NCBI GenBank assembly: GCA_028285415.1
Contig: JANQPF010000022.1
Span: 248,001 to 312,000, forward strand
DNA: 64,000 nucleotides
Direction: 5' to 3'
From: Pseudomonadales bacterium
GTDB taxonomy: Bacteria > Pseudomonadota > Gammaproteobacteria > Pseudomonadales > Azotimanducaceae
This document shows, piece by piece, positions 34,530-54,339 of the stretch. Numbering within the stretch: position 1 is the first letter of the stretch; every line of letters starts with the position of its first letter. Under the pieces are notes generated by a model, which searched no databases, was not told where the DNA came from, and worked only from the letters and a program-made list of their open reading frames with translations. The position numbers and the translations under genes were made by a program.

Positions 34530-34564
34530 ACGCCGCCTTCTGAGAGAGCGTGCCAATTCCGTCT

Positions 34565-36101: not shown

Positions 36102-36131
36102 GGCCTCGACGGTTCTTTAATTTCCGGCTTC

Positions 36132-36170
36132 ATTCGCCAGCTTCATTCACCAGCTTCATTCGCCAGCTTC
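36132..36170 (-). repeat. Three tandem 13-bp repeats over the puuD stop codon
   Basis: Minus-strand unit GAAGCTGGCGAAT occurs three times in tandem (36158-36170, 36145-36157 with one change, 36132-36144) and a fourth degenerate copy follows. The puuD TGA stop (36156-36158) is made at the junction of the first two units, so copy-number change would not alter the protein end. Confidence 0.85.
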
Positions 36171-38616: not shown

Positions 38617-38943
38617 TCAACTTCCCCGGTAGGTGCTGTAGCCGTAGCGGTTGAGCAGGAGCGGCACGTGATAGTGCGGGCGGTCACCGTCGACTTTGAA
38701 TGCCACGGTGACCGCCGGATAAAAACAGTCGTGCCCGCGTGCCGCAAACCAGGACTCAACCTCGAAGCGCAGGAAGAACGTGCCGCTGTCGATCTCCGGA
38801 AAGCCGCTCACGCGCCCGTCGTCGTCCGTGACGGACTCGCGCAAAACGTCGCCGTCTGCGTTCAGGAGTGCAACGGCAAGCCCTGCTGCCGGCTGGCCAT
38901 TCTCGAGATCGAGTACGTGAGTCGATAGGGTCGCTTTGCTCAT
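38617..38943 (-). CDS. uraH: 5-hydroxyisourate hydrolase
   Basis: 108-residue transthyretin-like HIU hydrolase. It hydrolyses the PuuD product to OHCU. Signatures are the N-terminal LSTHVLDLENGQPAAG with the active-site His, a conserved arginine region, and the C-terminal tetrapeptide YRGS that distinguishes the enzyme from transthyretin. The ATG overlaps the uraD stop by four bases (ATGA). Confidence 0.95.
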   Translation of the reverse strand: MSKATLSTHVLDLENGQPAAGLAVALLNADGDVLRESVTDDDGRVSGFPEIDSGTFFLRFEVESWFAARGHDCFYPAVTVAFKVDGDRPHYHVPLLLNRYGYSTYRGS

Positions 38944-39446
38944 GATGGCTCTTCTGTGATTGCCTGTGCCAGGCGCAGCGCTGTGATCTGCGCCTGCTCC
39001 CGAGCCGCGTTTGCAATCTCCTCCGCGCGGCTGTTGTCTATCCGTGCGCGAAGGTGTTGCAGCATCTCGTCCGCGGACTTTCCCGTCGCACAGATGATAA
39101 AAATGAATCCGAACTTGTCCAGATACGCCTGATTGAGCTCAGCGAGCGCCTGCAGCGTCGATTCGCTCGCCGCAAGCACCTGGCCCTGCTCACTCTGCGC
39201 CTGTCTCGCGAACTTCTGGCGCAGGTGCTCAACGTCGCCGATGAGCGGATGTGCGGCAAATGCCACCAGCCGTTCGGTGTCATCAACTGCCTGCCAGTGC
39301 AGCGCCACGCTGTCTGCGAGCTCGGTGAATCCCGCGTACGGTCGCGCTGCGGATACCGCGTCTGCCCATACTGGACTGTGACAAAGCGTGAGCAGCAGCT
39401 CATGGGCCGCCGCATCGGCGAGGGCGTTGAACTCACTGAGCGTCAT
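38940..39446 (-). CDS. uraD: OHCU decarboxylase
   Basis: 168-residue 2-oxo-4-hydroxy-4-carboxy-5-ureidoimidazoline decarboxylase, giving S-allantoin. Hallmarks are LAAFAAHPLIGD-like sequence here AFAAHPLIGDVEHLRQKF (catalytic His), LAELNQAYLDKFGFIFIICATGKSADEML and the E-A-x2-E-x2-A helix after it. ATG 39444-39446 (MTLSEFN) gives the family's usual length; an in-frame ATG 11 codons upstream would overlap xdhC by 47 bases. Even this start overlaps xdhC by 14 bases, showing tight coupling. Confidence 0.92.
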   Translation of the reverse strand: MTLSEFNALADAAAHELLLTLCHSPVWADAVSAARPYAGFTELADSVALHWQAVDDTERLVAFAAHPLIGDVEHLRQKFARQAQSEQGQVLAASESTLQALAELNQAYLDKFGFIFIICATGKSADEMLQHLRARIDNSRAEEIANAAREQAQITALRLAQAITEEPS

Positions 39447-40233
39447 GGCGGGCTCTGGTGCGTTGTTTGGGGACGGCATTTTCGGGATCGAATGTCTGCA
39501 GGAGCTGAGCCACCACTGATACGGCCACGGCCATCGGCAACTTTCCCGGAATCTCAGGGAGTCCGATGGGGCAGGTCACCCGGTCGAGTTCTACCTCGCT
39601 GAACCCGTCGCGCTCGAGTCGTCGGCGGAAGTTCTGCCACTTGGTTTTCGAACCTATCAGTCCCAGCATTGCCAGATCGTCGCGGTGGAGCAGCGCGCTC
39701 ATGATTTGGTAGTCGATGAGATGGTCGTGTGTCATTACGAGGAGAACTTCCCCGGACGGGATGTCGTCGCAGGCGGAGACCGCCTCACCCGAAACGATTC
39801 GATCTGCCGCTATGCCGTCCAGAAGTTCGTCCCGCGCATCGACCACGGTAGTGAACGCGTCGAGTTCACGCAGGAGCGTGCAGACATTTGCCGCCACGTG
39901 TCCAGCGCCGAAGAGGGTGACGCTCAGGCGGCTGAGGTTGAAACTCTCGTACAGCACGGTCACCGCCCCACCGCAGCACTGCATGGCGGCGGCGGCAAGC
40001 GGGTACTTTTCGATCTTCTGGCCATCCGCGGGCTCCTCGAGCATGCGACGAGCCGTCTCCATGACCAGGAACTCGAGCTGACCGCCGCCGATCGTATCGT
40101 AGGTGTGCGTCGCTGTGACCACCATTTTGCCGCTTGCGCGCGGCGTTGAGCCGCTCGTCTCCACGATCGTTGCCAGCACGCAGGGGGTGTTCTCGATGCT
40201 GCACTCGTGCAGGGCACGTTGCCACGGATTCAT
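39433..40233 (-). CDS. xdhC: Xanthine dehydrogenase accessory protein XdhC
   Basis: 266-residue XdhC/CoxI family chaperone, which binds the molybdenum cofactor, promotes its sulfuration and inserts it into XdhB. The N-terminal domain has CVLATIVETSGSTPRASGKMVV and the GGGQLE motif; the C-terminal NAD(P)-like domain has LFGAGHVAANV and DHLIDYQIMSALL, ending in CPIGLPEIPGK. Start and stop codons overlap both neighbours (xdhB by four bases, uraD by 14). Confidence 0.94.
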   Translation of the reverse strand: MNPWQRALHECSIENTPCVLATIVETSGSTPRASGKMVVTATHTYDTIGGGQLEFLVMETARRMLEEPADGQKIEKYPLAAAAMQCCGGAVTVLYESFNLSRLSVTLFGAGHVAANVCTLLRELDAFTTVVDARDELLDGIAADRIVSGEAVSACDDIPSGEVLLVMTHDHLIDYQIMSALLHRDDLAMLGLIGSKTKWQNFRRRLERDGFSEVELDRVTCPIGLPEIPGKLPMAVAVSVVAQLLQTFDPENAVPKQRTRARHDAQ

Positions 40234-42533
40234 GTGCTTGCTCCCTTGAAGTCGCGTGACGCACGCGCCGCGAAGTAGACCTGCTCGGCGGTCGCCGGAA
40301 CGGCAAGCGGAGGCAGATGGCGGTAGTCACTCAGGCTTGCGCAGGCGTCCCGGAGTGCACACCACACGGAAATGGCCAACATCAGGGGAGGCTCTCCCAC
40401 GGCTTTGGAGCGATGGATGGTCGGCGCGGGATTCGGCGCGTCGTAGAGGGATACGTTGAACTCGGCCGGGCAGTCCGCCGCGACCGGAATTTTGTAGTTC
40501 GCTGGACTGTCGGAGATGATCCGTCCGTCGTCGTCCCAGAGCAGCTCCTCCGTGGTCAGCCAGCCCATGCCCTGAACGAAGCCGCCTTCGATTTGTCCCC
40601 GGTCGATGGCCGGATTCAATGAGTCGCCGACGTCATGCAGGATGTCAACGCGGTTGACGCGATAAGCGCCCGAGGTGATGTCGATTTCCACCTCCGAGAC
40701 GGCGGCACCGTGTGCGAAGTAATAGAACGGCCGACCTTTGCCCGCCACCTTGTCGAAGTGAATGTCCGGCGTCGCGTAGAAGCCGGTTGCCGACAGCGGC
40801 GTGCGCGCCATGTAGGCCGCCTTGACGAAATCGGCGAACGGTTCACGCCAGCTGCCGTCGGGGGCGCTGACGTATCCGTCGGCAAAGTGGAGCTCACCCT
40901 GATGGTTGCGGTAGTCGGCGGCGTAAGCCGTCAGCGCGGACTTGATGCGATTGCAGGCGTCTGCGGCTGCAAAGCCGTTCATATCGGCCGCCGCGGAGGC
41001 GGCTGTGGGTGAAGTGTTGGGAACCTTGTCCGTCCGAGTGGCGGTATTGCGCACGCTTTCGCGCGATACGCCAAACGCTCTGGCCACCACCTGCGCAACC
41101 TTCGTGTATAGCCCCTGGCCCATTTCCGTACCACCGTGGCTGACCTCGATGCTGCCATCGGTGTACACGTGGACCAGCGCACCTGCCTGGTTGAGATGAG
41201 TTGTCGTAAACGAGATGCCGAACTTCACTGGGGTGAGGGCAATACCGCGTCGCAGAGATCCGGTGGTCTGGTTCGCGGCTTTGTTTGCTGCCTCGATCGC
41301 GGCCCTTCGGGCTGCGTAATCCGCGCGGTTTTCGAGCGCTTCGATGAGGTCCGGCAGAATGAGCTGTTCAACCTTCTGTCCGTACGGGGTGCGGTCGGCG
41401 CCGGGACGGTACAGATTGCGCTTGCGCAGCGTCAGCGGGTCGATCCCGAGCGCGTAGGCGGCCTCATCCATGGCCGCCTCGATGGCAAGCATGCCCTGCG
41501 GGCCGCCGAAGCCGCGAAACGCCGTGTTGGACACCGTGTGGGTTTTGCAGGGATACCCGCGCAGGCGGCTGGCCGGCAGGAAATACGCGTTGTCGATGTG
41601 AAACATCGCCCGGTCGACGATGCCCTCGGAGAGATCCGGCGAGTATCCGCATTTGCCCGCGATGTCGAAGCGACCCGCGGTGATGCGCCCGTCCGCGGCA
41701 AAGCCGAGCTCGGAGCGGATGGCAAAGTCGTGCCGCTTACCCGTCTGGACCATGTCGTCGCGACGCGGCATCCGGTATTTCGCCGCCCGCCCGTTGCGCT
41801 CGGCAAACAGGGCCGCCAGGCAGGCAAGCGGAGCCGCCTGGCTCTCTTTGCCGCCGAACGCGCCGCCCATGCGCCGGCACTCGATCTGTATCCGGTGCAG
41901 CGGCTGGTCCAGCACGCGCGCCACAAGTTTCTGTACTTCGCTCGGGTGTTGCGTCGATGTGCAGACGTAGATCCCGTCATCCTGGGGCAGCGCAAAGGCC
42001 ACCTGGCCTTCCAGATAGAAGTGTTCCTGGCCACGGACGTAGAGTTCGCTGGTGAGCGTATGGGCGGCATCTGCCAGCGCCGCGTCGGCGTCGTTCTGCT
42101 GCCAGTCCCGCGTCGGCAGCACGAACAGTTCTGCATCGAGCGCTGCCGCAACGCTGAGGACAGCCGCGCGTGGTTCATACTCGACGTCAGCCAGTGCGGC
42201 CGCGCGCAGCGCTTGCGTTTGGGTTTCGGCGGCAACGGCGAATATCGGCTGGCCGATGAATTCGACGCAGCCGTCGGCGAGCAGAGGATCGCCGGGAAAC
42301 ACTGGACCAACGTCCAGCTCGCCCGGAATATCCGCCGCGGTGATGACATCGACAACCCCGGGTGCGGCCCTGACGGCCGCAAGATCGAGACGCTTGATGT
42401 CCCCGTGAGCGCAGCCCGCGAGACCCGTGGCGATGTGCAGCGTATTGGCCGGCATCGGGACGTCGTCCACATAAAGCGCGCTGCCGGTGACGTGCTGTCT
42501 CGCGGAATCGTGGGGCAGGGCGTGCTCGTTCAT
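40230..42533 (-). CDS. xdhB: Xanthine dehydrogenase, molybdopterin-binding subunit
   Basis: 767-residue large subunit that binds the molybdenum cofactor and oxidises hypoxanthine to xanthine and urate. Signatures include ARQHVTGSALYVDDVP at the start, FYLEGQVAFALPQDDGIYV, GGAFGGKESQAAPLACL, the substrate-binding AFRGFGGPQGM region and the catalytic glutamate near the C-terminus in KAVGEPPLMLAIS. ATG 42533 overlaps the xdhA stop (ATGA); the frame upstream of it is internal to xdhA. Heterodimer partner of the next gene. Confidence 0.95.
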   Translation of the reverse strand: MNEHALPHDSARQHVTGSALYVDDVPMPANTLHIATGLAGCAHGDIKRLDLAAVRAAPGVVDVITAADIPGELDVGPVFPGDPLLADGCVEFIGQPIFAVAAETQTQALRAAALADVEYEPRAAVLSVAAALDAELFVLPTRDWQQNDADAALADAAHTLTSELYVRGQEHFYLEGQVAFALPQDDGIYVCTSTQHPSEVQKLVARVLDQPLHRIQIECRRMGGAFGGKESQAAPLACLAALFAERNGRAAKYRMPRRDDMVQTGKRHDFAIRSELGFAADGRITAGRFDIAGKCGYSPDLSEGIVDRAMFHIDNAYFLPASRLRGYPCKTHTVSNTAFRGFGGPQGMLAIEAAMDEAAYALGIDPLTLRKRNLYRPGADRTPYGQKVEQLILPDLIEALENRADYAARRAAIEAANKAANQTTGSLRRGIALTPVKFGISFTTTHLNQAGALVHVYTDGSIEVSHGGTEMGQGLYTKVAQVVARAFGVSRESVRNTATRTDKVPNTSPTAASAAADMNGFAAADACNRIKSALTAYAADYRNHQGELHFADGYVSAPDGSWREPFADFVKAAYMARTPLSATGFYATPDIHFDKVAGKGRPFYYFAHGAAVSEVEIDITSGAYRVNRVDILHDVGDSLNPAIDRGQIEGGFVQGMGWLTTEELLWDDDGRIISDSPANYKIPVAADCPAEFNVSLYDAPNPAPTIHRSKAVGEPPLMLAISVWCALRDACASLSDYRHLPPLAVPATAEQVYFAARASRDFKGAST

Positions 42534-43927
42534 GAGAGCGCCGCCTCGAGGCTTTTGCGCAGCATGTTCTGTGCCATGGCCAGTCGATATCGCGCGCTTG
42601 CGCGCACGTCGCTGATGGGTGCGAGATTTGCGGCCAGCCATTCATCCATAGCATCGAGATCGACGTTGTCGCGGCGCTGACCCTGCAGCTGCGGTTCCAG
42701 CGACGTCAGGCGCAGTGGGGTTGCGGCCATCCCGCCGTAGGCAATCCGCGCGCTCTGGATGACGCCATCCTGAACGGTGAATAGAAACGCGCCGGCAACG
42801 CTCGATATGTCGTCCTCGATACGTTTGGACACCTTGTGGAAATGCAGCGACCGCCAGTCGACGGGTCCGGGGATGCGAATTCGACTGATGAACTCCCCGG
42901 GAGCAAGCTCAGTCTGCCGGTACCCGGTGTAGAACGACAACAGCGGCAGGTGCCGCGTGTTTGCGCCGTGGCGGAGCTCGAGCTCCGCCTCCAGGCAGAG
43001 GAGCAACGGCGGCCAGTCTGCAATCGGTGATGCGTTGCCGAGGTTTCCGCCGATGGTCCCGCGGTTGCGCACCTGGGGCGATCCGAACCGAGACAGAAGC
43101 TCGGCAATGGCACCGCAGCTGAGCTGACTGAAATATGCCTGCAGCTGGGCGTGACTCACCCCCGCGCCAATGATCAGGTCGTCGCCGTCGGATTCAATGG
43201 CGCGCAGATCGGTAATGCCGGAGAGATCAATGATGTGATTGAAGGCCGCCTGGCGCTGCGTGGCTTCGAGCCAGAGATCGGTTGCCCCGGCGACAAGGCG
43301 GGCACCGGGAGCCGCGGCATAGAGATCGGCCAGAGCGCCGAGATCCGATGGGCGATCGTATTGCGCCTTTGGCTCGGCGCTGACGCGCGTTTGCTCGCCC
43401 GCCGCCACCAGCGCGTCAGCCTGACGATCTTTCTCCGGCTCAAGCCAGTCCGGATCGGCTGCCGCGCAGCCCCGCATGCCCGCTGCGATGATGGGTTTGT
43501 AACCGGTGCAGCGGCACAAGTTGCCGCCGATTGCCTCGACGATGCTGTTGCGATCCGTAGCCGCGTCAGGGGTAAGGCTGTGTCCGATCAGTGACATCAC
43601 AAATCCCGGCGTGCAGAAGCCGCATTGGGAGCCGTGCGCTTCGATCATCGCCGCCTGCACGGGATGGAGCGTGTCGTCCTTCTGCATCGCTTCCACGGTG
43701 TAGACGCGCCCGCCCTGCAGCGCGCCCAGGGGCGTGATGCAGGCGTTGAGGCTTGTCACCTCGCCGCCGTGGCCGACGAGCACGGTGCAGGCGCCGCAGT
43801 CGCCGGAAGCACAACCCTCCTTGGTGCCGGTAAGGCTGAGGTTACCACGCAGAAAATCGAGCAGAGTTTGCTCCGGCGGAAATGCGTCGAGCGTGTGCAA
43901 CTGATTGTTAACCTGAATGGTGAGCAT
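42530..43927 (-). CDS. xdhA: Xanthine dehydrogenase, Fe-S/FAD subunit
   Basis: 465-residue small subunit. The N-terminal plant-type [2Fe-2S] motif is GCASGDCGACTV, followed by the second cluster motif CGFCTPGF...CRCTGYKPI. The FAD domain (about 190-460) has RLVAGATDLWLEATQR, the FAD-binding RNRGTIGGNLGNASPIAD, and a C-terminal CO-dehydrogenase-flavoprotein-like tail. It carries electrons from the Mo centre to NAD. ATG 43925-43927 (MLTIQVNN) is the natural start. First gene of the operon, divergent from the rutR-like regulator. Confidence 0.94.
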   Translation of the reverse strand: MLTIQVNNQLHTLDAFPPEQTLLDFLRGNLSLTGTKEGCASGDCGACTVLVGHGGEVTSLNACITPLGALQGGRVYTVEAMQKDDTLHPVQAAMIEAHGSQCGFCTPGFVMSLIGHSLTPDAATDRNSIVEAIGGNLCRCTGYKPIIAAGMRGCAAADPDWLEPEKDRQADALVAAGEQTRVSAEPKAQYDRPSDLGALADLYAAAPGARLVAGATDLWLEATQRQAAFNHIIDLSGITDLRAIESDGDDLIIGAGVSHAQLQAYFSQLSCGAIAELLSRFGSPQVRNRGTIGGNLGNASPIADWPPLLLCLEAELELRHGANTRHLPLLSFYTGYRQTELAPGEFISRIRIPGPVDWRSLHFHKVSKRIEDDISSVAGAFLFTVQDGVIQSARIAYGGMAATPLRLTSLEPQLQGQRRDNVDLDAMDEWLAANLAPISDVRASARYRLAMAQNMLRKSLEAALS

Positions 43928-43980
43928 GCTGGTCTGGCGCTGAGCGATGTCGCCATCATAAACCCATTTTTCGTAAAAAT

Positions 43981-43996
43981 CTGGCCGTTTGGTCGA
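43981..43996. promoter_or_regulatory. RutR-like operator candidate
   Basis: In the xdhA/regulator spacer, the minus-strand sequence TCGACCA-AA-CGGCCAG fits the RutR box TTGACCA-N2-TGGTCAA at 10 of 14 fixed positions. It lies 54 bases from the xdhA start and 62 from the regulator start, a sensible place for divergent control. Confidence 0.4.
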
Positions 43997-44057
43997 GATT
44001 TGGTGGCGCCGGGCGCATCGCGCTCGTATGATGGTCATTCGCCACGTTCGAGTTCCC

Positions 44058-44726
44058 ATGTCGGTTTCCAGCTTCGACCCCCGCGCAACCCCCACCGGCG
44101 CTTACCGGCCCGGCAGGATTCGCGATGAAAACTTGAACACAATCATGAGCGCGGCTGCCGCGGAGTTCGTGCAGCACGGCTACCGGGGGGCGTCGATACA
44201 GCGGATAGCTGACCGCGCGGGGCTTCCCAAGGCCAACGTCCACTACTACTTTCCACGCAAAACCCATCTCTATCAGTCCGTGCTGAAGGAAATTGTTGCG
44301 CTGTGGAATTCTGAGCTCGACGAGCTGCAGGTTGATGACGACCCCGCGCAGGCGTTGGCGCGCTTTATTCGCAGCAAGGTCCGCCTGTCGTTCCTGCACC
44401 CCACCGCGTCGAAGCTCTTTGCGCTGGAAATCATCAGCGGCGCGCCGAATTTGCAGGCGTATCTCAGCGGTGAGCTTCGTGAGTGGGTTGCGGCCCGCGC
44501 CGGGGTAGTGCAGGCATGGATCGACGCCGGGCGCATGCGGCCGGTTGATCCGCTGCAGCTCATCGTCTCAATCTGGGCGACGACTCAGCACTACGCCGAC
44601 TTCGATGAGCAGGTGCTTAAGCTCATGGGCAAACGCCGCTACGATGCGGCGGCAATGGAGCAGATTGCCGACTTTCTGACCGACCTGATCCTCACCGGCT
44701 GCGGTCTGGAACCGCCGGTCTCGTGA
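44058..44726 (+). CDS. TetR-family regulator, RutR-like
   Basis: 222-residue TetR-type regulator. The DNA-binding domain reads AAAEFVQHGYRGASIQRIADRAGLPKANVHYYFPRKTHLYQSVL, close to E. coli RutR, and the C-terminal domain (LFALEIISGAPNLQAYL, IWATTQHYADF) also follows RutR. RutR senses uracil and thymine and controls pyrimidine and purine catabolism genes. Placement between xdhA (divergent) and the 8-oxoguanine deaminase gene argues it controls this island, with a purine or pyrimidine ligand. Its stop overlaps the next gene's GTG start. ATG 44058 is chosen because the family fold begins soon after. Confidence 0.88.
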   Translation: MSVSSFDPRATPTGAYRPGRIRDENLNTIMSAAAAEFVQHGYRGASIQRIADRAGLPKANVHYYFPRKTHLYQSVLKEIVALWNSELDELQVDDDPAQALARFIRSKVRLSFLHPTASKLFALEIISGAPNLQAYLSGELREWVAARAGVVQAWIDAGRMRPVDPLQLIVSIWATTQHYADFDEQVLKLMGKRRYDAAAMEQIADFLTDLILTGCGLEPPVS

Positions 44727-46060
44727 GCCTGTATCTGCGCAATCCGCTTGCCGCGCTCTGTGACGAGCCCATTGGCGGGATTGTCGTCGCCGACGGGCAG
44801 ATTGTGGAGTTGGTGGCGCCGGGCGGTTCGCCTGCGACGGCGATCACCGACACCTTCGACGCCAGCGGGCTGGTGCTGCTGCCGGGACTGATCAACACCC
44901 ATCATCACTTCTATCAAACGTTGACCCGCGCGATGCGGCGGGCGATCAATCAGCCGCTGTTTCCCTGGCTCGAGTCGCTGTATCCAGTCTGGGCAGGTCT
45001 CACGGAGCCGATGGTGGCAAGCGCCACGGAGCTTGCGTTGTGTGAGCTGCTCCTCTCGGGCTGTACGACAACAACTGATCACCACTACGTGTTCAACGAC
45101 GCGCTCGGTACCGCGATTGAGGTGCAGGCAGACGTTGCGGCTCGGCTGGGCGTGCGCGTGGTGCTCACACGTGGGTCGATGAGCCTCGGGGCAAGCGAAG
45201 GTGGACTGCCGCCCGACACCGTCGTTCAGCAGAGCGACGCCATCGTTGTAGACAGCGAGCGGCTGCTGAAGAAACTCCACGATTCGAATCCTCATGCGAT
45301 GTGCCAGCTGGCGCTTGCGCCGTGTTCTCCGTTTTCCGTCACAACGGAGCTCATGCGCGACACGGCGGCGCTTGCAGAAGCCCACGACGTGCTCCTGCAC
45401 ACTCATCTGGCGGAGACTGAGGATGAAACCGAATTCTGCCTCGCAACCTACGGTCAGCGTCCTGTGGACCTTCTCGCGTCCGTCGGCTGGTTGTCGCCGC
45501 GAACCTGGTTTGCCCACGGCATTCACTTCGCCGACGGTGAAATTGCCCGGCTGGGCGAACACGGCTGCGGCGTGACGCATTGCCCGTCGTCCAACATGGT
45601 CCTCTCGTCCGGTATCTGCCAGGTGCGTACCCTGGAGCAGGCCGGGGTCCGCGTTGGGCTCGGTGTGGACGGTTCAGCCTCCAACGATCATTCGAATCTC
45701 ATGCAGGAAGTGCGTCAGGCGTACCTGCTGCAGCGCCTGCACGACCCGTCGGTCACGCATCTGGACGCGCTGCGCTGGGCAACTGCCGGAGGTGCGGACG
45801 TGCTGCATCGTCCTGAGCTCGGACGCATTGAGGTGGGTGCGGCAGCGGATCTTGCGCTCTTCGATCTCGACGAGCTCAGGTTCAGCGGCACTGAAGATCC
45901 GCTGGCTGCGCTCGTCTTCAGCGGCGCCAGTCGCGCCCGCCACGTGATGGTCGCTGGCAGCTGGCGGGTTCAGGACTACCAGATCCCGGACCTGGACCTG
46001 GCTGATCTCAAGGCGCGCCATGGTGAACTTGCGCGCACTCTGCAGGCTACAGCAACGTAA
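44723..46060 (+). CDS. 8-oxoguanine deaminase-type amidohydrolase
   Basis: 445-residue amidohydrolase of the 8-oxoguanine deaminase/hydroxyatrazine hydrolase branch. Metal and catalytic motifs are LINTHHHFYQT (HxH), LLHTHLAETEDE, FAHGIHFADGEI and GLGVDGSASNDHSN. The HHHFYQTLTRA pattern and the FPWLESLYPVW segment are typical of the PA0142-type enzymes that turn 8-oxoguanine into urate. Feeding urate into PuuD would let the cell use oxidised guanine. GTG start overlaps the regulator stop (GTGA), so the two are co-translated. Confidence 0.88.
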   Translation: MSLYLRNPLAALCDEPIGGIVVADGQIVELVAPGGSPATAITDTFDASGLVLLPGLINTHHHFYQTLTRAMRRAINQPLFPWLESLYPVWAGLTEPMVASATELALCELLLSGCTTTTDHHYVFNDALGTAIEVQADVAARLGVRVVLTRGSMSLGASEGGLPPDTVVQQSDAIVVDSERLLKKLHDSNPHAMCQLALAPCSPFSVTTELMRDTAALAEAHDVLLHTHLAETEDETEFCLATYGQRPVDLLASVGWLSPRTWFAHGIHFADGEIARLGEHGCGVTHCPSSNMVLSSGICQVRTLEQAGVRVGLGVDGSASNDHSNLMQEVRQAYLLQRLHDPSVTHLDALRWATAGGADVLHRPELGRIEVGAAADLALFDLDELRFSGTEDPLAALVFSGASRARHVMVAGSWRVQDYQIPDLDLADLKARHGELARTLQATAT

Positions 46061-47348
46061 ATTTCAGCAGGAACACAACGGCCACCAGGGCGACTGCCGG
46101 TGGGCATTCCCGCGGCCTGCCGACCATGAGTTTGATGACCGCGTAGCTGATGAAGCCAATGCCGATCCCGTCGGCAATCGAAAAGCTGAGCGGCATGGCA
46201 ATTGCAGTCAAAACGGCAGGCGCGCTCTCGGTCAAATCGTCCCAGGCGAGATCCACCAGCGAGCGGGCCATGCTGGCGGCCACAAAGAGGAGCGCCGCGG
46301 CGGATGCATAAGGAGGAATGCTTTGTGCCAGTGGGGCAAAAAGAAGACACAGAACGAACAATGCAGCGATGACAACGGCCGTCAGGCCGGTGCGACCGCC
46401 ACTTTCCACACCGGCGGCGCTTTCGATATAGCTGGTCGTCGAAGATGTGCCAAGCACCGCTCCGGCGGCCGTTGCACCAGAATCGGCCAGGAGTGCACCA
46501 CGAAGGCGCGGCAGTTTGCCGTCGGGTCCGATCAGTTTGCCACGCGTGGCAACGCCGACCAGCGTCCCTGCGGTGTCGAAGATGTCGACCAGCAGCAGCG
46601 TGAAAACGACGCTGATCATTGCAACGTCAAATGCCGCGACCAGATCGAGCTCGAGGAAGACGGGTGCAATCGACGGCGGCGCGGACACCACGCCGTTGAA
46701 GCTGGCCTGCCCGCTCAGCCAGCCCACGGCGCTCAAGGCCAGCATCCCGATGATGACCGCTCCGCCCACGCCACGGCTCATCAGCGCGGTGATCAGAAAG
46801 AAGCCGAGGAGCGCCGCCGCCGGCGCAAAGCTCGTCAAGTCTCCCAACGCCACGAACGTTGCGGGATTGCTCACGATAACGCCCGCGTTCTTCATGGCGA
46901 TGAACGCGAGGAAAAGCCCGATGCCGGCGCACATGCCGAGCTTGAGGTTGCGGGGTATGGAATTGATCAGCCACTCGCGAATTGGCAGCACGCTCAATAC
47001 GATGAAAATGATGCCGGATATCAGCACCGCGCCCAGCGCAGCTTCCCAGGTGTGCCCCATGCCGAGCACAATGCCGTACGTGAAGAAAGCGTTCTGTCCC
47101 ATGCCGGGAGCCAGCCCGATCGGATAGTTCGCCGCGAGTCCCATGATGAGCGTACCCACCGCCGCCGCCAGGCAGGTCGCTACGAACACCGCGCCGAAGT
47201 CCATACCAGTATTGGACAGCATGTCCGGGTTCACCACCGTGATGTAAGCCATGGCCAGAAAGGTCGTCACGCCAGCAGTGACTTCTCGGCGCACGTTGGT
47301 CTCGTTCTCGCGCAGGTGGAACGTGCGCTCCAGCAAATTGGTGATCAT
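46047..47348 (-). CDS. NCS2 family purine-base permease, AzgA/PbuG type
   Basis: 433-residue integral membrane protein with about 13-14 transmembrane helices. It opens with FHLRENETNVRREVTAGVTTFLAMAYI, the AzgA-branch signature, and has GLAPGMGQNAFFTYG and SSTTSYIESAAGVESGGRTGLTA. AzgA-type carriers take up hypoxanthine, guanine and adenine by proton symport. It converges on the 8-oxoguanine deaminase gene (14-base overlap) and is divergent from a second NCS2 carrier over 68 bases. Confidence 0.92.
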   Translation of the reverse strand: MITNLLERTFHLRENETNVRREVTAGVTTFLAMAYITVVNPDMLSNTGMDFGAVFVATCLAAAVGTLIMGLAANYPIGLAPGMGQNAFFTYGIVLGMGHTWEAALGAVLISGIIFIVLSVLPIREWLINSIPRNLKLGMCAGIGLFLAFIAMKNAGVIVSNPATFVALGDLTSFAPAAALLGFFLITALMSRGVGGAVIIGMLALSAVGWLSGQASFNGVVSAPPSIAPVFLELDLVAAFDVAMISVVFTLLLVDIFDTAGTLVGVATRGKLIGPDGKLPRLRGALLADSGATAAGAVLGTSSTTSYIESAAGVESGGRTGLTAVVIAALFVLCLLFAPLAQSIPPYASAAALLFVAASMARSLVDLAWDDLTESAPAVLTAIAMPLSFSIADGIGIGFISYAVIKLMVGRPRECPPAVALVAVVFLLKFTLL

Positions 47349-47416
47349 CTATTTGGCCGGTGGTGTTGTTATGACATTATGGCGCAAGCATACAAAATCT
47401 GAGGGGCGCAGGCTCT

Positions 47417-48802
47417 TTGAGTCAAACTGAAAACGAGACTGGGGTTGCTGACCGGCCGCTGCTATATGCGCTCGAGGATCGCCCGCCGCTCGGGCGCGGA
47501 CTGATCAGTGCGTTGGCTCACTTGTTGGCGATTGTCGCCAGCATCATCGCTGCGCCGCTGCTCATTGCCAACGCGCTTCAGTTGCCACCTGCTGACGTGT
47601 TCTACGTTGTGAACGCCTCGCTTGTCGTCAGCGGTATCGCGACGTTCATACAGGTGTACCGTTTCGGCTGGGTGGGCTCGGGGCTCCTGGCGGTGCAGGG
47701 CACGAGCTTCACGTTCATCGGGCCCATGGCATTCGCGGCTTCTTACCTCGCCCTTGGCGACGACCACGAGACGCTCATGGGAATTCTACTCGGCACCGCA
47801 GCGGTTGGCGCTGCGTTCACGGCGGTTCTGAGCTTCTTTCTCGCACACCTGCAGCGTGTGATCACGCCGGCGGTCACCGGCACCACCATTTTCCTGCTTG
47901 GCCTGACGCTCGTTGCCACGGCGTACAGCAACCTGCAGCTGACCGTCACGCAGGCGGAGGCAGCGGGGCGTCACGTCGGCTGGGTCTGGGCTCAAGCGGC
48001 CGTTGTGATTGCGGCCATTGCCTGGCTTGCCACCCGGGCAAATCCCTGGGTGCGTCTGGCAAGCATCTGTGTCGGACTCCTGGTTGGTTTCGTTTTTGCC
48101 GCGCTGACGGGATGGGTGGAGTCGCCCGAGACGCCGGCAACGGCGCTCTTCGTGCTCGAGCCGGGCCGTTACGAGCTCGGTTTCGACGCCGTTGTGCTGT
48201 TGCTCTTTTTACCCATATTTCTCGTCAGCGTTACCGAATCCATTGGTGATATCACGGCCACCAGCATGCTCTCGAAGCAGCCCATACAAGGGCCGCAGTA
48301 CCTCAAGCGCCTGCGCGGTGGAATTCTTGCTGACGGCCTGAATACCATGCTCGCGGCGGCGTGCGGTTCGTTCCCCAACACGACGTTCAGTCAAAACAAT
48401 GCGGTCATACAGATCACCGGTGTGGCCAGCCGCTTTGTTGGCCTCCTACTTGCCGCGCTGCTGGTGCTCCTCGGCGTTGTGCCGTGGGTCAGCACGTGGT
48501 TTGTGATGCTTCCCGGCGGGGTCTTGAACGGCGCCACCGGATTTCTGTTTGCGCTCATTGCGTTTGCCGGCTGGCGCATCATTCGCCTGCAGGCTGGCGC
48601 GCAGGGACTCCGGGTTCTGCTTACGGCCAGCGCGGTAGCGCTCCTGCTGACCCAGCTGCCCACGGCGCTGGGCCTGGTTGGCGTTTCGCTGCCGCGTTAT
48701 GCGGAGATCCTGCTCGCATTTCCCGTCGCAACCGGTGCGGTTGCGGCCATGCTCATCGACAGCGGCCTGCGTCTGGCGCGGCCTGGAGAGGTAATCACGT
48801 GA
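47417..48802 (+). CDS. NCS2 family xanthine/uracil-type permease
   Basis: 461-residue permease with about 14 transmembrane helices, belonging to the nucleobase-ascorbate (UraA/XanQ) branch rather than AzgA. Key motifs are VQGTSFTFIGPM, the substrate-site VSVTESIGDITAT and NTTFSQNNAVIQITGVASR. Likely cargo is xanthine, urate or uracil. The start is TTG at 47417, an inference from the frame. It opens a five-gene plus-strand run; its stop overlaps the first NUP gene by four bases, so base import is tied to the exported nucleoside enzymes. Confidence 0.9.
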   Translation: MSQTENETGVADRPLLYALEDRPPLGRGLISALAHLLAIVASIIAAPLLIANALQLPPADVFYVVNASLVVSGIATFIQVYRFGWVGSGLLAVQGTSFTFIGPMAFAASYLALGDDHETLMGILLGTAAVGAAFTAVLSFFLAHLQRVITPAVTGTTIFLLGLTLVATAYSNLQLTVTQAEAAGRHVGWVWAQAAVVIAAIAWLATRANPWVRLASICVGLLVGFVFAALTGWVESPETPATALFVLEPGRYELGFDAVVLLLFLPIFLVSVTESIGDITATSMLSKQPIQGPQYLKRLRGGILADGLNTMLAAACGSFPNTTFSQNNAVIQITGVASRFVGLLLAALLVLLGVVPWVSTWFVMLPGGVLNGATGFLFALIAFAGWRIIRLQAGAQGLRVLLTASAVALLLTQLPTALGLVGVSLPRYAEILLAFPVATGAVAAMLIDSGLRLARPGEVIT

Positions 48803-49875
48803 ATAACTGCTGGAAACGATATGCCCTTGTCTGGGGATTACTCCTGGGTCTACCCGTCGCTGCATGGGCGGAAGGGCAGCCGGCTGCAACACCGCTCGAC
48901 GTCAAAGTTGTGGTGGTTGCCATGTTCGAGCACGGGGAAATCACCGGAGATCGTCCGGGTGAGTTCCAGTTCTGGGTAGAGCGCATGCCGCTTGACCGTG
49001 AGCTCGAGTTTCCGGGCGGACCCTATCCGTTGCGCTACCGCCAAGACGGCGTGCTCGGTATCTGCGTGGGCGGCGGCATTGCCAATGCGACGGCATCGAT
49101 CATGGCGCTTGGACTCGACGATCGGTTCGACCTCAGCCGCGCCTACTGGCTGATCGCCGGTATTGCCGGGGGCGATCCTGAGGATACGAGCATCGGTTCC
49201 GCGGTGTGGGCGAAACACGTGGTCGACGGGGATCTGCTGTATGAGCTCGACGCGCGTGAGATACCGGATGACTGGCCGTACGGCATGATTCCGCTGGGTG
49301 GCGAACGACCGGTGCAGTGGCCCGCAGATGTGACGACCGGCTGGACCGTTGATACCAGCCACTTTGCGTTGAACGAAACGCTGGTCGACTGGGCTTATGA
49401 GACCACGCGCGGTGTGACGATTCCCGACACGTCGGAGCTCGTCGAGTATCGGAAAGCGTTCGAAGGTTTTCCGCAGGCGCAGAAGCGCCCCCGGGTACAA
49501 ATTGGCGATACGCTTGCTTCGAGCACATACTGGCACGGTGAGCTGCTCAACCGCTGGGCAAATGATTGGGTAAAACTCTACGCCGGCCAGGAAGCCGAGT
49601 TTGTCACGACAAATATGGAGGATAGTGGAACGCTGGCCGCGCTCGGGCGACTTGACGCCATGGGCAAAGCCGACTTCAACCGCGCGCTGGTGCTGCGCAC
49701 CGTGAGTAACTTTTCGACACCGCCACCCGGCAAAACGGCTGCGTGGAGCGCTACGGCCGAGTACCCTGGTAACAGCAGACCTGCGCTCGAGTCGGCGTAC
49801 CAGATTGGCAGGGTCGTTGTCGAAGAACTCCTGGCAAAATGGTCTTTGATGGGCAAGCAGGTACCAGGAGAATAG
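48799..49875 (+). CDS. Exported NUP-family ('purine nucleoside permease') protein
   Basis: 358-residue protein with a Sec signal peptide (to about residue 23, PVAAWA) and no further membrane segment, so the name 'permease' is doubtful. Inside are DPxxFxFW-type opening DRPGEFQFWVERMPL, IAGIAGGDPEDTSIGSAVW, and MEDSGT (M273-T278) followed by LRTVSNF (299-305). The last two parallel the ME-x-A and R-x-IS-D motifs that bind the sugar and base in MTAN and nucleoside phosphorylases. I infer a periplasmic nucleoside-cleaving or -binding protein. GTG start behind GGAGAGG, inside the permease stop. Paralogue of the gene at 51314, same length. Confidence 0.8.
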   Translation: MNNCWKRYALVWGLLLGLPVAAWAEGQPAATPLDVKVVVVAMFEHGEITGDRPGEFQFWVERMPLDRELEFPGGPYPLRYRQDGVLGICVGGGIANATASIMALGLDDRFDLSRAYWLIAGIAGGDPEDTSIGSAVWAKHVVDGDLLYELDAREIPDDWPYGMIPLGGERPVQWPADVTTGWTVDTSHFALNETLVDWAYETTRGVTIPDTSELVEYRKAFEGFPQAQKRPRVQIGDTLASSTYWHGELLNRWANDWVKLYAGQEAEFVTTNMEDSGTLAALGRLDAMGKADFNRALVLRTVSNFSTPPPGKTAAWSATAEYPGNSRPALESAYQIGRVVVEELLAKWSLMGKQVPGE

Positions 49876-49886
49876 GAAAAAGTGGA

Positions 49887-51317
49887 ATGAAAAAAATAAC
49901 AAAAGGGCCTGTGTTAATCGCGTGCTTCTGTTTGTTTTCGAGTGTCCATGCCGCTGCGGATTGGTTCGAAGACTTCAAAGACAGTGCCAGTCCGGCTGAA
50001 CTGCACGCGTTTCTCTACGCCATGCCGAAAGGCGGAGATCTGCACCTTCATCTCAGTGGTTCGATCCTGTCCGAGTGGTTTTATGAGCACGCGCTCGCGC
50101 AGAAGGCTCGCGGCTACAGCTACTATGCCAAGGTCAGGATCGAGAACTGTGCGTCGGGCATCGACAGCGCGGATCGGACGAACTACCTGCTCCTCTATAA
50201 AACGATCGATCACCTGTCTTACGCGGAGCTGGGTGAGTGTCAGCGCAATGAGTACGAACCCCTCGAATCGCTCACAGGTATCGACAAAGAGCGGTGGCTC
50301 GATGGTCTGCGTCTCGACGAGCCTTTTGAGGGTCGCAACGAGTTCTTCGAGCGGAACTGGGCGCGTATGGGCGACCTGTCGCGAAATCCTTACCTCGTGG
50401 CCGACGTTTTTGCCGAGCACGTGCTCGCGATGGGCGAAGAGGGACTCCTCTACATGGAGCCACAGGTGCCCATCGGTTTCGGCATGGTGCGCAGCGACGG
50501 TGAGGCTGTACATCCCGATGAGGCCGTTGCGCTCTATCGGGCACGTCTCGCGCAGCCCGACGTTCGCAAAGCGGGGGTCACCGTGCGCATGCAGGTGTCG
50601 TTGCTGCGCTTCCTGCCCCAGGCGGAGGAGGCGTTGAAGCTGCTGTACCGGTTTGCGCACAAGCACGATGACGTCGTGGCGGTAAACATGGTGGGACGTG
50701 AAGATAACGACAAAGGTTATCCGCTGCGCTTCCTGCCGACGCTGCGTGAGCTGCGACGGCAGTATTCCGGCGTGCGTCTGTCGATCCACGCCGGTGAGGT
50801 CGATGAGCCCAACCATCACGTTCGCGACACCCTGCTGCTTGGTGCTGAGCGGATCGGCCACGGTGTCAATCTCATCACGGATCCGGAAACCCTCACCGCC
50901 ATGCGCTACGGCCCTTATCTGGTCGAAATCAACCTCGTGTCGAACCTTTTGTTAGAGTATGTGAGCGACTATAGTCAGCATCCCTTTCCGGAGTATCTTC
51001 GCCTTGGCGTGCCGGTGGCACTATCGACCGACGATCGTGGTATGTGGGACTCCACCATGACCGATGAGTTTTTTGTTGCGGTCACGGAATTTGATCTCAG
51101 CTGGCAGGAAGTCAAAACGTTGAGTCGAAACTCATTGGCATACGGATTTGTGGAGGAGGACGTCAAACGAGGGCTCCTTGCCGAATATGACACGCGGATA
51201 CGTGATTTCGAGCGCCGCTTCCAGCGCAAAGGAGCGGACATGCTGAGCGATGTTGCGCCACTGCGTCTCGGCTTCATCTGCCGCTACTACCAGCTTTGTC
51301 CGGAGGAAAACCAGTGA
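49887..51317 (+). CDS. Exported ADGF-type adenosine deaminase
   Basis: 476-residue adenosine deaminase with a Sec signal peptide (MKKITKGPVLIACFCLFSSVHAA) placing it outside the cytoplasm. All active-site motifs are present: GDLHLHLSGS (H53, H55), HAGE (301-304, catalytic Glu), IGHGVN and STDDRGMW (zinc Asp). The long N-terminal part and the NYLLLYKTID helix region are reminiscent of secreted ADGF/CECR1 enzymes rather than cytoplasmic Add. It should turn extracellular adenosine or deoxyadenosine into inosine. Flanked tightly by two NUP genes (11 bases and a 4-base overlap). Confidence 0.88.
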   Translation: MKKITKGPVLIACFCLFSSVHAAADWFEDFKDSASPAELHAFLYAMPKGGDLHLHLSGSILSEWFYEHALAQKARGYSYYAKVRIENCASGIDSADRTNYLLLYKTIDHLSYAELGECQRNEYEPLESLTGIDKERWLDGLRLDEPFEGRNEFFERNWARMGDLSRNPYLVADVFAEHVLAMGEEGLLYMEPQVPIGFGMVRSDGEAVHPDEAVALYRARLAQPDVRKAGVTVRMQVSLLRFLPQAEEALKLLYRFAHKHDDVVAVNMVGREDNDKGYPLRFLPTLRELRRQYSGVRLSIHAGEVDEPNHHVRDTLLLGAERIGHGVNLITDPETLTAMRYGPYLVEINLVSNLLLEYVSDYSQHPFPEYLRLGVPVALSTDDRGMWDSTMTDEFFVAVTEFDLSWQEVKTLSRNSLAYGFVEEDVKRGLLAEYDTRIRDFERRFQRKGADMLSDVAPLRLGFICRYYQLCPEENQ

Positions 51318-52390
51318 AACAAGCCATCACGCTGATTGTATTGAGCCTGCTGATCGGTTGCGCGACCCAGCCGCCGGCAGCCCCGATGGACGGAAAGCTG
51401 CCGGTCAAGATTGTGCTCGTAACGATGTTCGAGCGCGGCGCTGACGAAGGTGACGATCCCGGTGAGTTTCAATTCTGGAAAGAGCGCCGCCAGCTTGACC
51501 AGCGCCTGGCCTTCCCCCACGCGCACCATGACCTCTACTACAACGCCGAATCGCAGATACTCGGCCTTGTCACCGGCGTTGGCACCGCAAAAGCGGCCGC
51601 GTCCACCATGGCGCTGGGTCTCGATCCACGCTTTGATCTGACGAAAGCGTACTGGCTCGTTGCCGGGATTGCCGGGATCGACCCCGAGGATGCCTCGATC
51701 GGGTCAGCGGCCTGGTCCACCTATCTCGTGGACGGTGATCTGGGTCACGAGATTGATGTCCGGGAAGTGCCGGAGGAGTGGCCTTTCGGCTACTTTGCGC
51801 GCCGCACGCAGTTCCCTTTCGACCCGAATCGTCCGGAGCCAAGCGGTGGTGAGATGTACATGGTCAACAACGAGCTGCGCGATTGGGCTTACGGTTTGAC
51901 GAAAGATCTCGCGCTGCCCGATCCGCCGGGTCTGAAAGAAGTGCGTGAGCGATACACCAAACATCCAAACGCACGTAAGCCGCCGTTTGTACTCAAGGGC
52001 GGGCACATTGCTGCTCTGACTTTCTGGCACGGTGCAATCATGAATGACTGGGCGAACCGCTGGGTGCACTACTGGTCGGACGGCAATACCGATATGGTGA
52101 CCTCGGCGATGGAGGAGACCGGGACCTTCCTTTCGGTGAAGTGGCTGCATGAGAGTGGCTACGTCGATAAAAACCGTTTCATGGTGCTGCGGGCGGGTAG
52201 CAACTTCACGATGCCGCCTCCAGGCGTCGGTGCGGCGGAGAATCTGCTGCAGGAGAACGAAGGTTATGCGGGCATGGGTGCGGCGCTCGAGTCGCTCTAT
52301 CTGGTCGGTTCGGTTGTGATCGACGAGTTGCTCGAAGGCTGGGCCACCTATGAGAAGACCATACCCACACCGCAGATGCTCGACCGCTAG
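51314..52390 (+). CDS. NUP-family lipoprotein, second copy
   Basis: 358-residue paralogue of the gene at 48799, here with a lipoprotein signal (VKQAITLIVLSLLIGCATQ, lipobox LIGC), so membrane-anchored but exported. Shared blocks are DDPGEFQFWKERRQL, VAGIAGIDPEDASIGSAAW, WHGAIMNDWANRW and SAMEETGT (M266 onward) with LRAGSNF (292-298). As in the first copy these recall nucleoside-phosphorylase-superfamily sites. GTG start at 51314 behind a strong GGAGG, overlapping the deaminase stop. The two copies differ enough that substrates may differ (for example ribo- versus deoxyribonucleosides). Confidence 0.8.
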   Translation: MKQAITLIVLSLLIGCATQPPAAPMDGKLPVKIVLVTMFERGADEGDDPGEFQFWKERRQLDQRLAFPHAHHDLYYNAESQILGLVTGVGTAKAAASTMALGLDPRFDLTKAYWLVAGIAGIDPEDASIGSAAWSTYLVDGDLGHEIDVREVPEEWPFGYFARRTQFPFDPNRPEPSGGEMYMVNNELRDWAYGLTKDLALPDPPGLKEVRERYTKHPNARKPPFVLKGGHIAALTFWHGAIMNDWANRWVHYWSDGNTDMVTSAMEETGTFLSVKWLHESGYVDKNRFMVLRAGSNFTMPPPGVGAAENLLQENEGYAGMGAALESLYLVGSVVIDELLEGWATYEKTIPTPQMLDR

Positions 52391-52401
52391 GGGAGGGGCG
52401 C

Positions 52402-53409
52402 ATGCAGACATTCATCGAAAATCTTCCGAAGGCTGAGCTCCACGTTCACCTGGAGGGTACGCTCGAACCCGAGCTCATGTTCGAGCTTGCGCAGCGCAAC
52501 AAGATAGATCTGCCGTACGCCACGCCTGAGGAAGTGGTAGCCGCATATGATTTCCACGACCTGCCCTCTTTCCTGGCCATCTACTATCCCGCCATGGGGG
52601 TGCTCCAGACCGAGGCCGACTTCTATGACCTGGCGATGGCGTATTTCGAGAAAGCGGCGGCACAGAACGTGGTCTACGTGGAACCCTTTTTCGACCCGCA
52701 AGGACACACCACCCGAGGCGTCTCCTTCGACACCGTCATTCGAGGGATCCACGCGGCACAGGTGGATGCAGAGGCAAAGCTCGGCGTGCGTTCCCAGCTC
52801 ATCATGTGTTTCCTGCGCGACATGGACGCTGCGTCAGCCGCGGCCCACCTCGAGATGGCGGAACCGTATCTCGACTGGCTGGTGGGCGTGGGCCTCGACA
52901 GCGACGAAAAAGACAATCCGCCCGCCAAGTTTGCCGACGTGTTTGGGCGGGCGCGGGAGCTTGGCCTCAGGCTCACCATGCATTGTGACGTCAATCAGAA
53001 AGACATTGTCCCGCACATGTGGGAGTGTCTCGACCTCATCGGTGTGGATCGGATCGATCACGGCATCAATGCCCTGGACGACGAGGCCCTGGTTGATGCG
53101 ATCCAGGCCCGGGATCTGGGGCTGACCATCTGTCCAATTTCCAACCGCTTCGTGGTGCAGGATCTCACTGGCGAGCAGATACGCCAGTTTCTGGGCCGTG
53201 GCATCAAGGCCACGGTCAACTCCGACGATCCGGGCTACTTTCGCGGCTACATGAACGAGAACCTGCTGGCGCTGGCCGAGGAAGCGGCGTTTTCGCGGGA
53301 GGAAATTGCGCAGCTGACCAGGAACGCGTTTTCGATTGCCTGGGTGAGTGACGGTGACAAGGCGCAATACCTGGCTGATCTCGACGCCTATCTGGCGCGG
53401 GCGGAGTAG
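52402..53409 (+). CDS. Adenosine/adenine deaminase-family protein lacking the HxGE motif
   Basis: 335-residue cytoplasmic (no signal peptide) amidohydrolase similar overall to bacterial adenine and adenosine deaminases. It keeps HVHLEGT (H14, H16), the FFDPQGHTTRG region, RIDHGIN, CPISNRFV and NSDDPGYF. The catalytic HAGE of the family is replaced by HCDVNQ (194-199), removing the usual proton-donating Glu at that place, so the substrate or mechanism probably differs. I recall similar HCDV-type members elsewhere, so it is likely a subfamily rather than a decayed gene. Starts 11 bases after the lipoprotein NUP gene with GGGGAGG upstream. Confidence 0.8.
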   Translation: MQTFIENLPKAELHVHLEGTLEPELMFELAQRNKIDLPYATPEEVVAAYDFHDLPSFLAIYYPAMGVLQTEADFYDLAMAYFEKAAAQNVVYVEPFFDPQGHTTRGVSFDTVIRGIHAAQVDAEAKLGVRSQLIMCFLRDMDAASAAAHLEMAEPYLDWLVGVGLDSDEKDNPPAKFADVFGRARELGLRLTMHCDVNQKDIVPHMWECLDLIGVDRIDHGINALDDEALVDAIQARDLGLTICPISNRFVVQDLTGEQIRQFLGRGIKATVNSDDPGYFRGYMNENLLALAEEAAFSREEIAQLTRNAFSIAWVSDGDKAQYLADLDAYLARAE

Positions 53410-53420
53410 CGCGCGCCGTA

Positions 53421-54218: not shown

Positions 54219-54339
54219 GAGCTGGTGCGTGCCGATTTCACGCTGATGCTACTAGATTGTTCTCTTTGAAGCCTGTCACCAATCTTTAACACGCAGTTTT
54301 TACCGTGGTGACACTGTGTTGCCTTCAGAGCGTGAGTCC

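Follow-up and report, generated by a model that had tools for sequence, protein, structure and literature searches.

A candidate locus for exported purine nucleoside degradation, with NUP proteins of predicted nucleosidase fold, in a Pseudomonadales bacterium

We analyzed a 64,000-nucleotide stretch of a Pseudomonadales bacterium genome (family Azotimanducaceae; GenBank assembly GCA_028285415.1, contig JANQPF010000022.1, positions 248,001 to 312,000), hereafter the window, in which a first-pass annotation had placed a periplasmic purine nucleoside degradation system coupled to base import. We confirmed the coordinates (47417-53409) and Pfam families of the five overlapping or nearly touching plus-strand genes on which that proposal was built:

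47417..48802, plus strand: NCS2 permease, xanthine-permease-like (Pfam Xan_ur_permease, 1.5e-65; 11 hydrophobic windows)
48799..49875, plus strand: NUP1, predicted exported periplasmic NUP protein, proposed purine nucleosidase (Pfam NUP, 9.7e-107; signal peptide)
49887..51317, plus strand: predicted exported adenosine-deaminase-like protein (Pfam A_deaminase, 6.4e-33; signal peptide)
51314..52390, plus strand: NUP2, predicted lipoprotein of the NUP family, proposed purine nucleosidase (Pfam NUP, 2.8e-107; lipobox LLIGC)
52402..53409, plus strand: cytoplasmic adenosine deaminase (Pfam A_deaminase, 2e-77; NF006850; TIGR01430, above cut-off)

Both NUP genes start with GTG, at 48799 and 51314, in GTGA overlaps with the stop of the NCS2 gene and with the exported deaminase gene, respectively; these are the overlaps reported earlier. 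The two NUP proteins score 357 and 359 bits against the Pfam NUP model (PF06516, curated cut-off 27). The permease is a Xan_ur_permease member that does not qualify as PbuX (TIGR03173, 275 bits against a cut-off of 414), and the last gene product reaches 419 bits with NF006850, the NCBIfam model for adenosine deaminase, whose cut-off is also 419. A promoter and terminator scan of 47000-54400 returned 2 and 4 hits, compared with 2.0 and 5.9 in shuffled sequences, and thus no excess.

NUP1 begins with MNNCWKRYALVWGLLLGLPVAAWA and the exported deaminase with MKKITKGPVLIACFCLFSSVHA, both ordinary signal peptides; NUP2 begins with MKQAITLIVLSLLIGC, which carries the lipobox. Under a home-made and crude rule, which asks for a positive N region, a hydrophobic core of 10 residues and a pattern for cleavage or for a lipobox, signals are found in 116 of 122 NUP proteins (42 lipoprotein-like) and 59 of 66 exported deaminases from the window and related loci, and in only 2 of 145 cytoplasmic controls from eight families given the same treatment, with 29 truncated or unplaceable rows (3 NUP, 2 deaminase, 24 control) left out. 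The cytoplasmic deaminase family has a signal in 0 of 39 members examined. An earlier version of the rule fired on 62 of 70 NUPs and 32 of 34 deaminases (some loci repeated) and on 0 of 23 cytoplasmic deaminases. Signal peptides on three proteins, as first described, thus stand out in this contrast with cytoplasmic controls, and we infer that NUP1, NUP2 and the deaminase at 49887-51317 are exported.

The exported deaminase retains H53, H55, H301, E304, H325, D382 and D383 in 25 of 25 aligned sequences. We take these seven residues to be the zinc and catalytic residues, and the deaminase motifs are intact, as had been stated. C88 and C118, in an insert after the first motif, are also invariant (25/25). 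A structural model (predicted local distance difference test, pLDDT, 86.4) is closest to a chimeric ADGF, the Helix pomatia AMP (adenosine monophosphate) deaminase and human ADA2 (matches include 9ntk, E 2.3e-17, and 3lgd, E 3.4e-16), and this fold together with the export signal is that of the ADGF/ADA2 group. The earlier ADGF label holds for the fold and fails against the curated ADGF/ADA2 definition, which combines the TIGR01431 cut-off with an N-terminal dimerisation domain: the protein scores 94 bits against a cut-off of 315 and matches only model positions 57-474. Because it lies below the curated cut-off and the first 56 model positions have no counterpart, we call the protein ADGF-like in fold and not an ADGF. 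Elsewhere in the GTDB genus, the place beside or near NUP2 is taken by another exported deaminase-like protein with 28-34% identity to that of the window (related loci L043, L044, L045, L046, L047, L049, L050 and L052), as if the slot had been refilled.

NUP2 has no hydrophobic window past its signal and NUP1 has one borderline window (1.616, cut 1.6), as against 11 in the NCS2 permease and 11 in an AzgA-like permease encoded nearby. An AlphaFold2 model of NUP2, built with 55 relatives in the input, is globular alpha/beta (pLDDT 91.8). A Foldseek search with this model returned 640 PDB chains with E-values of at most 0.001, and the 50 of these that were listed are all methylthioadenosine/S-adenosylhomocysteine (MTA/SAH) nucleosidases (MTAN) or futalosine hydrolases. 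The best among the matches listed is 1z5o (E 1.3e-11; TM-score 0.72 by target length, 0.49 by query length), and a periplasmic Aeromonas MTAN (5b7q) is also among them. The model thus points to the fold of the purine nucleoside phosphorylase (PNP)/MTAN nucleosidase superfamily. An hhalign alignment of NUP with Escherichia coli MTAN, although not significant in score, places the landmarks GxG, AGxAG, ME and RxxS-N in the same order (GVGTAKAAA on GIGKVAAAL, AGIAG on TGSAGG, ME on ME, and RAGSN on RAISD). The NCBIfam futalosine hydrolase model matches NUP2 at 1.6e-6, below its cut-off, and does not match NUP1.

Conserved residues suggest what NUP proteins might cleave. Among 55 aligned NUPs, E266 and R292 are each found in 55 and N296 in 52. 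The position aligned with MTAN Asp197, which we take to be the catalytic residue of MTA/SAH nucleosidase, holds Asn in 52 sequences, Asp in 2 and Ser in 1. PDB titles among the structural matches include MTAN D197N and D198N mutants that hold uncut adenine nucleosides, and trimeric purine nucleoside phosphorylases that prefer 6-oxopurines carry Asn at this position. Because N296 stands in for a residue whose Asn mutants leave adenine nucleosides uncut, we suggest that NUP prefers inosine, guanosine or xanthosine, a preference that would account for the exported adenosine deaminase found alongside it. Ser90 of E. coli PNP, presumably phosphate-binding, aligns by the AGxAG landmark with Ile in 50 and Val in 5 of the 55 NUPs, which favors hydrolysis over phosphorolysis.

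In a published study of another NUP protein, adenosine supports growth of an adenine-requiring yeast strain that expresses Candida NUP; the same yeast is not sensitive to toyocamycin at 70 uM, a true transporter made yeast sensitive, and the authors conclude that Candida NUP does not carry toyocamycin (PMC9431476). Extracellular release of adenine, with no cleavage of the 7-deaza compound toyocamycin, would explain both results; this is our reading and not that of the authors. Two other papers list a NUP protein: one in a thylakoid-lumen labelling table of Synechococcus 7002, next to the lumenal PsbV (PMC7880944), the other in a table of proteins from work on how the conidial surface of Aspergillus is assembled (PMC7389560).

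A further candidate component lies about 20 kb away from the NUP genes:

26527..29046, minus strand: TonB-dependent receptor TBDR2, proposed outer-membrane nucleoside importer (Pfam Plug, 2.4e-11)

The Plug match identifies this protein as a member of the receptor family; the barrel family PF00593 is not listed at E 0.001, either because the barrel is too divergent or because the match was filtered. The receptor of a related NUP operon (L036) has a single close homologue in the window's genome, the protein at 26527-29046 (73% identity; next best 28%). Relatives frequently share the order receptor-NUP1-deaminase-NUP2 (L034, L035, L036, L038 and L070). Of 200 genomes from the same family, 74 have NUP and 94 have the receptor (at least 50% identity); both occur in 64, NUP only in 10, the receptor only in 30 and neither in 96 (Fisher 1.8e-18, in a test that ignores relatedness). 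The two share a contig in 50 of these genomes and lie within 10 kb of each other in 48.

We further fetched 80 related loci, the best-scoring of 573 candidates and thus biased to close kin, and 56 of them are at least 17 kb long. The receptor is present in 48 of these 56 long loci: 26 of 26 alphaproteobacterial and 22 of 30 others, as classed from record titles (one, L139, has no taxon stated). The long loci also encode a deaminase-like protein (37 loci), a base permease (32), a guanine or 8-oxoguanine deaminase (27) and xanthine dehydrogenase (14). Control genes from the window (another TonB receptor, FolE, PhyH, Na/Pi and agmatinase-like) each occur in 0 or 1 of the 56. In Microbulbifer rhizosphaerae (L103), genes for DUF3450, two ExbB-like proteins, ExbD, TonB and a tetratricopeptide-repeat protein lie between the receptor and NUP2, and an allantoate amidohydrolase gene follows; a Vreelandella locus (L107) resembles it by position and N termini, with families run only on its CpdB and amidase genes. 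A quick tree of 88 receptors, midpoint-rooted, splits receptors unlinked to NUP into two well-supported groups nested among the linked ones, and the linked alphaproteobacterial receptors form one group. This fits a linkage that is ancient and was followed twice by its loss or by a change of role. The receptor homologues from NUP-less genomes (L169-L183) fall into two groups in the tree and have mostly unrelated neighbors; their substrate may have changed. A TonB-box pattern matched 47 of 88 receptor rows under a loose rule applied to aligned parts only and was not used. From its linkage to NUP genes, we propose that the receptor imports nucleosides.

The first-pass annotation had proposed a search of genomes for a conserved order NCS2-NUP-ADGF-NUP, and had named the absence of conservation in every relative as a refutation. 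Contiguous NUP-deaminase-NUP genes occur in 8 of 34 related genomes mapped (chosen, not random, from 73 others with NUP), with the receptor interrupting in 2 more, and this part of the order is thus shared by relatives, so that the proposal is not refuted on gene order; the NCS2-first arrangement was seen in the locus maps only in the window. More broadly, NUP is found in 5 of 369 genomes of the wider class, the window's own included, and in 47 plasmid records from Sphingobium to haloarchaea. The NUP family is thus wider than the module, which we regard as specific to a lineage. The plasmid homologues include haloarchaeal, Azospirillum, Burkholderia-group and Acidithiobacillus proteins at 21-60% identity. 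Other NUP loci encode an exported CpdB-type nucleotidase (L107), a 5'-nucleotidase-like protein (L093) or a signal-bearing IU nucleoside hydrolase (L135). In alphaproteobacterial NUP loci, IU hydrolase or PNP_UDP_1 proteins (L135:1906-3024, L082:13322-14272 and L093:10981-11898) have signal- or lipobox-like N termini.

The region between the receptor and the five core genes encodes further purine functions:

34550..35149, plus strand: purine phosphoribosyltransferase-like protein (Pfam Pribosyltran, 2.8e-13; NCBIfam xanthine/hypoxanthine phosphoribosyltransferase models below cut-off)
35187..36101, plus strand: PuuE allantoinase (TIGR03212, 531 bits, above cut-off)
36156..37334, minus strand: PuuD-type urate oxidase with a C-terminal cytochrome-like domain (Pfam Urate_ox_N, 2.3e-116)
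37336..38616, minus strand: guanine deaminase (TIGR02967, 492 bits, above cut-off)
38617..38943, minus strand: hydroxyisourate hydrolase, UraH (TIGR02962, above cut-off)
38940..39479, minus strand: OHCU decarboxylase, UraD (TIGR03180, above cut-off)
39433..40233, minus strand: XdhC accessory protein (TIGR02964, above cut-off)
40230..42641 (open reading frame limits, true start uncertain), minus strand: xanthine dehydrogenase molybdopterin subunit, XdhB (TIGR02965, 1101 bits, above cut-off)
42530..44095 (open reading frame limits, true start uncertain), minus strand: xanthine dehydrogenase FeS/FAD subunit, XdhA (Pfam FAD_binding_5, Fer2_2, CO_deh_flav_C and Fer2)
43989..44726 (open reading frame limits, true start uncertain), plus strand: TetR-family regulator with a YcdC (RutR)-type C-terminal domain (Pfam TetR_C_3, 2.7e-49; TetR_N, 4.3e-14)
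44723..46060, plus strand: 8-oxoguanine deaminase-type amidohydrolase (NF006055, 619 bits, above cut-off)
46047..47348, minus strand: AzgA-like base permease, proposed hypoxanthine/adenine/guanine importer (Pfam Xan_ur_permease, 3.1e-50; 11 hydrophobic windows)

By Pfam and NCBIfam profiles, the gene set from hypoxanthine to allantoin is complete beside the NUP genes on the same contig. The name AzgA for the permease at 46047-47348 is our assumption. The cytochrome-like domain of the urate oxidase is a weak Cytochrome_CBB3 match (9.6e-5, below its cut-off), and a 13-bp unit in 3.4 copies (36127-36170) lies between the PuuE and PuuD genes and reaches into both gene ends. The TetR gene lies between the Xdh and 8-oxoguanine deaminase genes, and similar genes occupy the same place in L055, L056 and L058. 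We presume a link between this protein and RutR and consider it a candidate regulator of the purine cluster. We looked for an operator common to the upstream regions of the receptor, AzgA/NCS2, PuuE, phosphoribosyltransferase and TetR/Xdh genes and obtained only stretches that overlap one another and weak matches of the kind expected by chance.

Together, gene order, protein families, export signals, the NUP2 fold, co-occurrence and linkage lead us to consider it likely that the locus encodes an exported nucleoside-to-base pathway with the receptor as its entry; we infer from them every catalytic and transport step that follows, along with the substrate, hydrolysis over phosphorolysis and the 6-oxopurine preference. 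First, the receptor at 26527-29046 would bring in, through the outer membrane, purine nucleosides or small nucleotides from which these are released. Second, the deaminase at 49887-51317 would convert adenosine to inosine in the periplasm. Third, soluble NUP1 and lipid-anchored NUP2 would split the N-glycosidic bond, with hydrolysis as the most probable reaction and 6-oxopurine nucleosides as the most probable substrates, to give ribose and a base (hypoxanthine, guanine or xanthine). The AzgA-like and NCS2 permeases would then carry the bases through the inner membrane. Finally, guanine deaminase, XdhABC, PuuD, UraH, UraD and PuuE would take them to allantoin and on. The first-pass annotation had already joined exported cleavage to base import and to Xdh-PuuD-UraHD-PuuE. 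Export signals, fold and the neighboring permeases and enzymes argue for that outline, which was right in kind and incomplete; it missed the receptor, the most constant partner of NUP in relatives.

Several observations, in addition to the relatedness and sampling biases given above, weigh against this pathway. By hhalign, NUP is not significantly similar to E. coli MTAN (E 0.27), E. coli DeoD (0.064) or the genome's own PNP (0.4); Pfam PNP_UDP_1 matches just 3 of 55 NUPs (best 7.6e-6), and a NUP profile searched against PDB sequences gave no meaningful chain match. In the alignment, the catalytic Asp of MTAN is not kept in NUP. The growth on adenosine conferred by Candida NUP cautions against a sharp 6-oxopurine preference. 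The receptor is 20 kb from NUP in the window's genome, with the purine degradation genes between them, and 30 of 94 receptor-bearing genomes have no NUP; among 15 receptor loci from 14 such genomes, one has an AzgA neighbor and one an IU hydrolase. Eight of the 56 long loci lack the receptor, and six lack receptor, deaminase and permease alike. The locus maps show NCS2 directly before NUP on one strand nowhere outside the window. In four annotated plasmid neighborhoods outside the group, NCS2 lies beside NUP once (Granulicella) and no nucleoside gene was found three times. Moreover, the window's genome encodes two CNT nucleoside transporters, two IU nucleoside hydrolases and two PNP_UDP_1 proteins, so the exported route would be additional and is not needed for nucleoside use. 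A_deaminase proteins number three in this genome, which also encodes a ribokinase-like protein that matches E. coli RbsK at 33%; Nuc_H_symport was sought in it and not found.

An alternative that we find unlikely, though it deserves weight, is that the locus serves nucleotides or oligonucleotides, with the receptor importing larger nucleic-acid fragments and the deaminase acting on AMP or modified nucleosides. It differs from the proposed nucleoside pathway in the first substrate only. Helix pomatia AMP deaminase is among the first matches of the deaminase model, some loci include the exported CpdB-type phosphodiesterase/nucleotidase or 5'-nucleotidase, and nucleosides are small enough for porins, so that an active receptor suggests a larger or very dilute substrate. 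However, nucleotidases were found only in the few fully annotated loci, and the nucleosidase fold of NUP needs no phosphate handling.

It is less probable still that NUP proteins are exported phosphorylases, releasing ribose 1-phosphate and a base. Their predicted fold superfamily is common to purine nucleoside phosphorylases, and DeoD has the best of the three hhalign E-values, but the 50 structural matches listed are hydrolases, the Ser90 position is Ile or Val throughout, and we know of no importer for ribose 1-phosphate in the periplasm. Very improbably, the main task of the exported enzymes could be to destroy nucleosides that are toxic or act as signals (nucleoside antibiotics, methylthioadenosine or deoxyadenosine, for example) and not to feed the cell. 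MTA/SAH nucleosidases are among the nearest folds of NUP2, and ADA2, which the deaminase resembles, is secreted and clears adenosine that acts as a signal; the linked genes, for base permeases, a TonB-type receptor, xanthine dehydrogenase and the enzymes of urate and allantoin breakdown, point instead to nutrition. We reject as scarcely credible that NUP proteins are nucleoside permeases, as the Pfam name and the "transport" by which the authors of the Candida study explain adenosine use in Saccharomyces cerevisiae would have it (PMC9431476), because they lack a membrane-helix bundle, the high-confidence NUP2 model is globular alpha/beta with a nucleosidase fold, and the Candida protein, in that same study, did not transfer toyocamycin. 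These reasons concern transport and leave room for NUP as a binding protein that assists a permease, though we give this reading as little probability. NUP is probably no permease, and the family name probably needs correction.

The proposed pathway recalls several known systems. NUP shares its predicted fold and the order of the GxG, AGxAG, ME and RxxS landmarks with MTA/SAH nucleosidase and futalosine hydrolase, whose relatives include the periplasmic Aeromonas enzyme; unlike MTA/SAH nucleosidase, NUP proteins carry export signals, are ~100 residues longer and have Asn for Asp197 in 52 of 55 sequences, and most have no significant sequence match. The exported deaminase resembles ADGF/ADA2 in its signal peptide, deaminase motifs, fold and insert with two invariant cysteines, but has nothing equivalent to the first 56 model positions and falls well short of the model score (94 against 315 bits). 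In E. coli, the Tsx-UshA/CpdB-NupC/NupG route brings nucleosides across the inner membrane intact, to be split in the cytoplasm. Some loci studied here likewise have periplasmic nucleotidases that could feed nucleosides, whereas the enzymes that would split nucleosides have export signals here, and the permeases linked to them transport bases. Bacteroides thetaiotaomicron reportedly harvests ribose through IU-type hydrolases, outer-membrane import and inner-membrane sugar transport encoded in one locus, as Glowacki et al. are said to have described in 2020. That locus likewise combines outer-membrane import with nucleoside cleavage enzymes; here, NUP and an exported deaminase are instead tied to purine-base import and uric acid degradation. 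Polysaccharide utilisation loci cluster a TonB-dependent receptor, exported hydrolases, an inner-membrane carrier and catabolic enzymes. The logic is the same, while the proposed substrates here are nucleosides, and no SusD partner was seen, though none was sought.

We found no description of such a locus in open-licence PubMed Central papers, which is weak evidence of absence. More tentatively, and leaning slightly toward doubt, we suggest that this is an undescribed nutrient locus for TonB-driven nucleoside capture, exported deamination and base release, ancestral to the gamma- and alphaproteobacterial set, and also that the whole NUP family (bacterial, archaeal and fungal, Candida included) consists of secreted purine nucleosidases. 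If so, the proteins called "permeases" in bacteria, archaea and fungi would be secreted enzymes, and genome annotations and tallies of transporters that follow the name would be wrong. The locus would provide a concrete outer-membrane nucleoside receptor in marine and soil bacteria living on dissolved organic nitrogen. The first two steps of purine use would take place outside the cell, leaving the bases open to neighbors. Finally, the NUP profile occurs in fungal NLR immune proteins, as one study describes (PMC9815663), and in these a nucleosidase would be a plausible effector, more so than a permease.

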